Below, piece by piece: positions 21,885 through 32,227 of a stretch of 32,645 nt of DNA. The stretch comes from Planctomycetia bacterium (GTDB taxonomy: Bacteria > Planctomycetota > Planctomycetia > Pirellulales > PALSA-1355), in NCBI GenBank assembly GCA_016200205.1, contig JACQFF010000014.1:1-32645 (forward strand). Reading direction: 5' to 3'. The notes under the pieces are model-generated. The model searched no databases. It saw only the letters and a list, made by a program, of their open reading frames with translations, and was not told the origin of the DNA. Made by a program: the position numbers and the translations under genes. Position 1 is the stretch's first letter. Every line of letters starts with the position of its first letter.

Positions 21885-21934
21885 GGGAGAGATTTTAGCC
21901 GGTCGGGGCCAGTCTCCCCAATAGCGATTCTGTA

Positions 21935-22036
21935 TTGAGTCCTAGGTCGATAACGGAATAGGGCCGACCAACGGAAGGCCCGGAAAATGCGCCAGTTTGC
22001 CTCGAACGCGAATTGCATTAGTTTGCTAGGGATCAA
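21935..22036 (+). repeat. TIR/hairpin intergenic element, copy A
   Basis: Ends TTGAGTCCTAG / CTAGGGATCAA; core GGGCC-GACCAACGGAA-GGCCC, AAATGCG, TTTGCTAGG; same layout as copy B at 27278-27382. Confidence 0.6.
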
Positions 22037-22836
22037 TAATCGCCTTGCACGGCCGCCGCGGCGATCCAGTCGACCAGCTTCGGCGCCAGCAGCTTGCCCC
22101 AGCGCGCCCACTTCGAACGCGCCGAGGTCAGCACCAGCCGCTCTCGTCGGCCCATCGCTTTGACGATCCGCCGCGCACAGGCTTCAGCGGTCATGAGCTT
22201 CTTTTGGTCGAGCGGGCTTTTATTAAGCCGCTGGCCTTTGGCGTCGACGGCCCGCGACAGAATTTCGGACTGCACGAAATCGGGGGCAACGATCGTGACG
22301 CCCACGCCGCTACCTGCCAGTTCGATGCGCAGCGATTCATAAAACCCGATCACCGCGTGCTTGCTGGCCACATAGCCCGACAACAGCGGGGCGCCCAACA
22401 GCCCCGAAACGCTCGCCACCGCGACTATCAGTCCGCATGATTGCTTGAGATGCGTAAGCGCGAAATGCGTGCAGTACACGCTGCCCAGGTAATTCAGCCG
22501 CATGATCTCTTCCATGACGGCCAGATCGGTCAATTCATCGAAGCGGGCCCACATCGCCCGGCCGGCATTATTGACCAGCGCGTCCAAACGGCCGAAGCGC
22601 TTGATCGCGCGGGCAATCAATTCGCCGCATTGCTCCTCGACGGTTACGTCGGTGGGCACAGCCAGCGTTTCAGCGCCCAATCGCAGGCATGTGGCCGCTG
22701 CATCTTCGAGCCGCTGGGCATCGCGCGCGGCCAGTACGAGCTTTGGCCGCCGCGGGGCCAATTCCAACGCCAACGCCCGGCCGATGCCGCTCGAGGCCCC
22801 GGTAATGAGAATCACTTGGTCCGAAAACTGAGCCAT
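22033..22836 (-). CDS. Short-chain dehydrogenase/reductase
   Basis: VILITGASSGIGRALALELA, NNAGRAMWA, YVASKHAVIGF (YxxxK). Start MAQFSDQV at 22836. Confidence 0.93.
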   Translation of the reverse strand: MAQFSDQVILITGASSGIGRALALELAPRRPKLVLAARDAQRLEDAAATCLRLGAETLAVPTDVTVEEQCGELIARAIKRFGRLDALVNNAGRAMWARFDELTDLAVMEEIMRLNYLGSVYCTHFALTHLKQSCGLIVAVASVSGLLGAPLLSGYVASKHAVIGFYESLRIELAGSGVGVTIVAPDFVQSEILSRAVDAKGQRLNKSPLDQKKLMTAEACARRIVKAMGRRERLVLTSARSKWARWGKLLAPKLVDWIAAAAVQGDY

Positions 22837-27165: not shown

Positions 27166-27277
27166 GACGCCAGTTCATTTCAAAACCGCTCCCGAGAAGA
27201 ACAAAGTCCCATTGGGCTCCGCCGACCATCCTGCGGATAGTGCCCGCGCAAAAATTGGAACACTCCCCAGCGGTTTT

Positions 27278-27382
27278 ATCGATCCCCAGGCAACTAATGG
27301 TCGAGGGGCGACCAACGGAAACCCCGGCAAATGCGGTGGTTCGCGATGGAATGACCAAGCCCTTTACTTTGCTAGGACTCAA
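27278..27382 (+). repeat. TIR/hairpin intergenic element, copy B
   Basis: ATCGATCCCCAG ... GGGGC-GACCAACGGAA-ACCCC ... AAATGCG ... TTTGCTAGGACTCAA; the right end CTAGGACTCAA is the exact reverse complement of the left end of copy A. Confidence 0.6.
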
Positions 27383-27412
27383 AAAAACATCGCCTCGGCA
27401 GGCAAGTGCTTC

Positions 27413-30487: not shown

Positions 30488-32227
30488 ATGTCTGACGAAC
30501 CGAAACTCAGTGCGGTCGAGGTCTTCAAAATTCAAAGCGATTATCTGCGCGGCGATATCGGCCAGGAGCTGCGGGATGGCAACGATTTCTTCGGCAAGTC
30601 GAGCATTCAACTGCTGAAGCATCACGGCACCTATCAGCAAGACGATCGCGATGCGCGCGCCGCCGGCCGCACCGAAGGGGGCAAGGGCAAGAGCATCAAA
30701 GCGTATTCGTTCATGGTCCGCAACAAGATTCCCGGCGGCAAATTGACCAGCGATCAACTTTTGGCCGAGCTCGATTTGTGCGACGAAGTTGGCAACACGA
30801 CGTTGCGGATCACCAGTCGCCAGGGTTTGCAGTTGCATGGCGTGCTCAAACATGACTTGTGGAAAACTATTCACCGCATCAACGAGGTTCAGCTTTCGAC
30901 GCTGGCGGCTTGCGGTGACGTCGAACGGAACATCATGTGCTGCCCGGCCCCGCTCGACGACCGCGTGCACGCTCAGTTGCAAGCGCTCGCCGATCAGTTG
31001 GCGATTCATCTCTGCCCCCGCACGCGGGCTTATCACGAACTGTGGCTGACCGATCCCGACACGGGCGAAGAAACCTTGCAGGGGGGCGGCAACGGACAGG
31101 AGATCGAGCCGATCTACGGATCGACCTACTTGCCACGCAAATTCAAAACGGCTATCGGTCTGCCCGGCGACAATTGCGTGGACCTGTATGCCAACGATTT
31201 GGGTCTGATGGCGATTACCGAAGGTGGCTCGATTGTCGGCTATAACGTGCTGGTCGGTGGCGGAATGGGCGTGACGCCTAGCGCCGAGAAAACTTTTCCG
31301 GCCGTTGCCCGGCGGATGGCGTTCATCAAGCCGGAACAAGCGGTCGACGTGGCCACCGCGATCGTCAAAGTGCAGCGCGATTTCGGCAATCGCGCGGATC
31401 GTAAAGTCGCGCGAATGAAATACCTGATCGCCAATTGGGGCTTGTCCAAGTTCAAGGCCAAGGTCGAGGAATATTACGGCAAACCCTTGGCCGATCCTCA
31501 TCCGAATGACGTGCATGGCTTCGACGACCATATCGGCTGGTTCGAACAGGGTGACGGCCGCTGGTTTTATGGCTTGAATGTCGAAAACGGCCGCATTCAC
31601 GATGAAGCTGATTTTCGGCTGAAGACGGCCCTGCGCGTGATTTGTGCCACGCTGAAGCCAAGTATCCGTCTCACGCCGCATCAAAGCATGCTGTTTACGG
31701 ACATCAATGCGGCCGATAAGCCGATTCTCGAAAAGGTTCTGCGCGAGCATGGCGTCAAGCTTCACGACGAGATTTCCACGGTGCGCCGCTGGTCGATGGC
31801 GTGCGTGGCCTGGCCGACCTGCGGCCTGGCGATTACCGAAAGCGAGCGAGCCTTGCCGGGCATTATCGATCAATTGGAGATCGAATTGGCCAAGCTTGGG
31901 CTGTCGCACGAAAAATTCACGCTTCGCATGACCGGCTGTCCCAACGGCTGCGCTCGACCGTATAACTGCGACATCGGGCTGGTCGGCAAAGCCGCCGGGC
32001 GCTACACGCTCTTGGTCGGCGGCCGGTTGTTGGGAGATCGCTTGAATTTCATTTACAAGGACATGGTCCCCGCGGCTGAGATCGTGCCCTCGATCGTGCC
32101 GCTGTTCGTCTATTTCAAGCAAGCTCGCGAGCAGGGCGAAACGCTGGGCGATTTCTGCCACCGCAAGGGACTCGAAGACCTGCTGGCCTGGACCGAACAG
32201 TACGCGGCCCAATCGGCCAGCGCGTAG
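30488..32227 (+). CDS. Assimilatory sulfite reductase / ferredoxin-nitrite reductase (siroheme, 4Fe-4S)
   Basis: LRITSRQGLQLHGVLKHDL; siroheme/FeS motifs CVAWPTC and TGCPNGCARPY. Confidence 0.92.
   Translation: MSDEPKLSAVEVFKIQSDYLRGDIGQELRDGNDFFGKSSIQLLKHHGTYQQDDRDARAAGRTEGGKGKSIKAYSFMVRNKIPGGKLTSDQLLAELDLCDEVGNTTLRITSRQGLQLHGVLKHDLWKTIHRINEVQLSTLAACGDVERNIMCCPAPLDDRVHAQLQALADQLAIHLCPRTRAYHELWLTDPDTGEETLQGGGNGQEIEPIYGSTYLPRKFKTAIGLPGDNCVDLYANDLGLMAITEGGSIVGYNVLVGGGMGVTPSAEKTFPAVARRMAFIKPEQAVDVATAIVKVQRDFGNRADRKVARMKYLIANWGLSKFKAKVEEYYGKPLADPHPNDVHGFDDHIGWFEQGDGRWFYGLNVENGRIHDEADFRLKTALRVICATLKPSIRLTPHQSMLFTDINAADKPILEKVLREHGVKLHDEISTVRRWSMACVAWPTCGLAITESERALPGIIDQLEIELAKLGLSHEKFTLRMTGCPNGCARPYNCDIGLVGKAAGRYTLLVGGRLLGDRLNFIYKDMVPAAEIVPSIVPLFVYFKQAREQGETLGDFCHRKGLEDLLAWTEQYAAQSASA

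Follow-up and report, generated by a model that had tools for sequence, protein, structure and literature searches.

A family of IS630-type MITEs with a near-constant inner hairpin in the Pirellulales

The two copies of a short repeat, A and B, that occur in a 32,645-nucleotide stretch of a Pirellulales contig (JACQFF010000014.1; hereafter the window) belong to a new IS630-type MITE family, of the same kind as the RUP and Correia elements. We found no description of a MITE family from Pirellulales in the open-access literature, a scope that leaves most subscription journals outside. We consider it very probable that an IS630/Tc1-type transposase, encoded by an IS of ~1.1 kb, moved both copies in trans. 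This explanation draws on the presence of a repeat family of near-fixed length with TIRs, on TA junctions within YTAR, on a patchy distribution, and on the matching ends of IS630-group elements in relatives. Against it stand the lack of an exact empty site, a MAG of its own without a related transposase, and weak end matches in two relatives (G024 and G021); the conserved inner hairpin counts further against a plain MITE, which does not need one. The preliminary description had proposed a MITE-like or structured intergenic element family, and both halves of that proposal are supported. To it we add the copy number, the full TIR, the YTAR target with TA at both ends, a probable IS630-group partner in relatives, the distribution and the near-constant inner hairpin.

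Read directly from the sequence, both copies lie where they had been placed. Copy A, of the A-type subfamily, runs from TA to TA at 21933-22038 (plus strand) in the intergenic space that separates a glycosyltransferase-9 gene from an SDR gene, with a left TIR, TATTGAGTCCTAGGTCGATAACGGAAT, at 21933-21959 (plus), an inner hairpin, GGGCC-GACCAACGGAA-GGCCC, at 21961-21981 (plus) and a right TIR at 22012-22038 (minus), within which lies the TGA stop codon of the SDR gene (22035-22033, minus strand), an overlap that had been correctly recognised. Copy B, of the B-type subfamily, occupies 27277-27384 (plus) and is flanked by genes for a radical SAM protein and a SAM-methyltransferase; it has AA in place of the right-hand TA, and its hairpin, at 27306-27326 (plus), reads GGGGC-GACCAACGGAA-ACCCC. 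This stem (GGGGC/ACCCC) had been quoted as GGGCC/GGCCC, but all other quoted blocks are correct, and TTGAGTCCTAG at the left of A is the exact reverse complement of CTAGGACTCAA at the right of B. The terminal inverted repeats are present as claimed but had been described too short. They extend over ~25-27 bp (A-type, TATTGAGTCCTAGGTAAATAACGGAAT versus TATTGATCCCTAGCAAACTAATGGAAT), share the conserved blocks TATTGA, CT(A/G) and AATG, and are imperfect, left and right differing at fixed places. In the orientation of the core, the element consists of TA, a TIR of ~25 bp, the hairpin, a variable segment of ~30 nt, the second TIR and TA, with a GC content of ~0.42-0.66; the consensus of the core hairpin across the family is GGGSC-GACCAACGGRA-GSCCC.

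A blastn search of the window's own genome (4.96 Mb, 328 contigs) with copy A returned six further copies of the A type, 80-89% identical (E 1e-22 to 1e-34), copy B at E 7.5e-5, and other weak matches. A covariance model built from 18 copies then identified 37 full-length copies in the same 4.96 Mb at E < 0.01. The outcome that the preliminary description had named as fatal to its reading, no further copies and similarity at the level of chance, is thus contradicted by both searches, and the model scan that it had proposed was positive in relatives as well. Searching with the TIR pattern alone yielded more copies in this genome, with paired ends ~102 bp apart. Nearly all of the genome's copies are ~105 bp long, and they fall into at least five diverged subfamilies; one internally deleted copy of ~70 bp (G000:C310, ~31840-31910, L030) joins a subfamily C-like right half to a TATTGGAGCCC left stub. 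The elements are under 200 bp, multicopy and dispersed, carry TIRs and are devoid of genes, as expected of MITEs.

The family is present in 13 of the 58 genomes of the order, the window's own included, with up to ~95 copies each; 16 were counted in G004 and ~94 in G024. Carriers span ~10 families of the order, as counted from family labels, and none was found in the one congener examined (G001) or in two genomes of the same family (G002 and G003). Matches to the core pattern in GTDB are mainly Pirellulales MAGs, and a coarser scan of the phylum, limited to ten scored candidates per genome and so giving a lower bound on the member count, added further members, chiefly from the same order. Core-pattern matches in Bacteroidales (L134) and Ornithinimicrobium (L135) contained no full-length element and were dropped. 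In other Planctomycetota (L204 in G415 and L202 in G199), short palindromic elements with TATTGA ends match without a clear core hairpin, and are probably further IS630-type MITEs. A search of a plasmid collection gave no match to the MITE; a single IMG/VR viral contig (L227:2959-3063) holds one full-length copy (49 bits), the sole clear viral match, and carriage by a phage or provirus is possible.

This distribution bears on whether the repeat is an old, immobile sequence, inherited vertically and no longer, or never, moved by an IS630 element. The divergence of the subfamilies in the window's genome is what such a history would leave, as is the failure to detect a partner there. The absence of the MITE from congener and same-family genomes speaks against it, however, as do the ~94 near-identical copies in G024, the identical copies that occupy different sites in G521 and the non-random junctions, and we regard this history as highly improbable. 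The examined copies in G024 are nearly identical, with an apparent burst of amplification behind them.

The junctions define the target. In all 33 of the G024 copies examined the length is 104-105 bp and the junctions are Y-TA...TA-R, with C or T 5' of the left TA and A or G 3' of the right TA, against a background of 11% YTAR among all TA sites of that G024 DNA. The target of the MITE is TA within YTAR. As for the target-site duplications that had been suggested as a check, TA stands at both ends in a YTAR context, but no exact empty site was recovered, either in G002 and G003 or in comparisons within genus g21. The two genes that flank copy A adjoin without the MITE in G002 and G003, at ~70% identity, where the exact junction cannot be read; in genus g21, G056 and G037 are without the MITE, but the G021 intergenic region contains extra unrelated sequence and offers no exact junction. 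We infer that TA is a duplication and that an IS630 transposase moves the MITE.

With ORFs called by a simple program based on codon usage, 29 of 30 copies in the window's genome lie outside genes, in both orientations, and no rule of orientation toward genes emerged among the 30. Six of the genome's copies, A included, reach 4-13 bases into the end of a called gene. The product of the SDR gene matches adh_short, and its C-terminus is about as long as those of its counterparts in G002 and G003. This context speaks against a fixed cis-regulatory RNA.

We looked for IS630-family transposase genes in the genomes that carry the MITE. G024 contains a 1101-bp element with overlapping ORFs of 164 and 184 aa that match HTH and DDE_3 Pfam models; its TIR is TATTGATCTTCAGA, one end of which runs on to AATGG, so that the TATTGA and AATGG blocks are spaced as in the MITE. 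Searching for homologues recovered ~20 related IS elements in the order. With the IS ends defined as TA-bounded inverted repeats, the MITE sequence not being used, the IS630-group elements show the end types TATTGA... or TACTC..., as in the MITEs. The ends are MITE-like beyond all or nearly all shuffles in eight of nine IS630-group elements, and those of two other IS630 elements are not MITE-like in the same test. Within single genomes, the match between IS and MITE ends is clear in G081 (22/27) and G023 (20/27), and weak in G024 (15/27, P 0.01) and G021 (13/27). TACTC-type members cluster in the transposase tree, with weak support. The transposase with matching ends that the preliminary description had suggested looking for is thus represented by the IS630 group in relatives, but the window's own assembly yielded none. 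Homologue searching found no related IS630-group transposase in this MAG, where the partner has presumably been lost or has escaped detection at a contig break; the sole DDE_3 match there, an IS630 on contig C75, has ends (TAGTGCTTTGTCACAGCT) unrelated to the MITE and was rejected. Among the matches listed for this genome and G024, no gene-sized element had the exact TIRs of the MITE, the ends pairing only at ~102-104 bp. On these comparisons of sequence, the probable partner is the ~1.1-kb IS630-group IS (HTH plus DDE_3) of relatives.

The closest model for such a partner is IS630/ISY100, which inserts at TA, has an imperfect TIR of 24 bp and combines N-terminal HTH domains with a DDE catalytic domain (PMC2170065), and for which TA is duplicated on insertion and ends of ~24-30 bp suffice (PMC2170065). 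The G024 IS differs in its overlapping ORFs and YTAR sites, and the MITE itself has no gene. We suggest that an IS630/Tc1-type transposase, provided in trans by the ~1.1-kb IS, would bind the ~25-bp TIRs and excise the ~102-bp element, which would insert at TA within YTAR to leave TA on both sides, the inner hairpin being under a constraint separate from that on the TIRs.

The pairing between the two ends can be read in other ways. Paired columns match in 82.5% of cells, in an alignment fitted to the model's own structure, versus 70.9% in shuffles, with two-sided changes at 18 of 22 pairs; aligning 18 copies with MAFFT leads to the same result. The pairs that covary in the stem and in the hairpin, together with the highly conserved hairpin loop, would suit a structured ncRNA or cis-regulatory RNA family, a leader RNA or sRNA whose ends form a closing stem and whose dispersal is secondary. 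A-C mismatches in the stem are not rarer than G-T, however, so there is no sign of an RNA helix on the plus strand, and the wobble test found no plus-strand G-U preference in the stem. Neither gathering nor permissive thresholds gave an Rfam match, and the absence of an orientation rule, the equality of MITE and IS630 ends and the TA in YTAR at both ends likewise speak against an RNA, which we consider very unlikely. The long imperfect palindrome with regularly placed mismatches also recalls a folded single-strand recombination site of the attC kind, or a REP element with a Y1-type transposase. Its ends are TATTGA/TCAATA, however, not the attC boxes GTTRRRY/RYYYAAC, the copies are single and dispersed, with TA junctions and IS630 ends, and the mismatch columns pair at the chance rate and so are not kept unpaired; a site of this kind is exceedingly unlikely. 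Chance-rate pairing fits positions that a DNA-binding protein does not read, and the covariation of the stem follows the IS end types.

The inner hairpin is the unexpected part of the element, near-constant although the ends differ. Its loop columns carry ~1.0-1.9 bits, versus 0.04-0.7 across most of the variable segment, a constancy beside a randomised neighbouring segment that is not easily explained by common descent alone. The core occurs with different TIR types in the window's own genome and in G004, G014, G024, G075 and G081, and G521 has, by eye, a hairpin at the same place with the stem letters swapped and a GA...CGGAA loop. Models built with the core favour core carriers, but elements with the core also emerged from searches with the TIR alone. 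A copy on C289 has part of the loop deleted. From these patterns the hairpin likely has a selected role, the likeliest candidate being that of a cis element which would aid amplification or tolerance, through host-factor binding or through a folded form of DNA or RNA. Tentatively, and with less than even confidence, we propose that it is a selected module, kept by MITE lineages as they switched TIR types for different IS630 transposases, and that it may promote their mobilisation or protect them, acting as folded DNA or as RNA to which a factor of the host or of the transposon binds. Two ISs (L171 and L178) have, toward their 3' end, a sequence, GCCCAGCGGAAG, that resembles the MITE core but is transposase C-terminal coding sequence (SHFRWA); the core may possibly derive from such sequence. 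Separately, several IS630 relatives (L163, L176, L182 and others) have a small hairpin, GCTAGCACCGTA..GGTGCATGAG, just inside the IS end and upstream of ORF1, which, beside the transposase start, perhaps serves translation control.

Among known elements, mobilisation of RUP (repeat unit of pneumococcus) by IS630-Spn1 has been proposed (PMC3049150, PMC2229807). Like RUP, the Pirellulales MITE is close to 107 bp, has no gene, and has IS630-like TIRs, TA termini and many dispersed copies (PMC3049150, PMC2229807). The RUP TIR is listed as 9 bp and AT-rich, whereas that of the MITE is ~25 bp and its GC ~0.42-0.66; it also spans ~10 families of the order and has a near-constant inner hairpin, and we do not claim membership by sequence. 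Pneumococcal RUP is over-represented between convergent genes (PMC3049150), whereas none of the copies in the window's genome (n = 30, L034-L063; a small sample with crude gene calls) was called there. Correia/NEMIS of Neisseria is comparable in its ~107 bp form, 24-bp TIR, TA termini and stem-loop transcript (PMC2229807); sequence and host differ, and we claim no link to IHF or RNase III. ERIC (RU-1) of enterobacteria is likewise a small repeat that is palindromic and dispersed, ends in TA and has a conserved interior (PMC2229807), but is 127 bp long, with a short TIR and another sequence and host.

An identified mobiliser with matching ends is uncommon among bacterial MITEs (PMC2229807), and here the probable mobiliser was recognised through its matching ends. 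Insertion of the MITE can alter gene ends: the TIR of copy A provides the SDR stop codon, and five more copies in the same genome overlap gene ends. With its burst of amplification in one genome, its reach over ~10 families with changing ends, and its near-constant hairpin, the family offers a good system for learning what a MITE needs beyond its TIRs.
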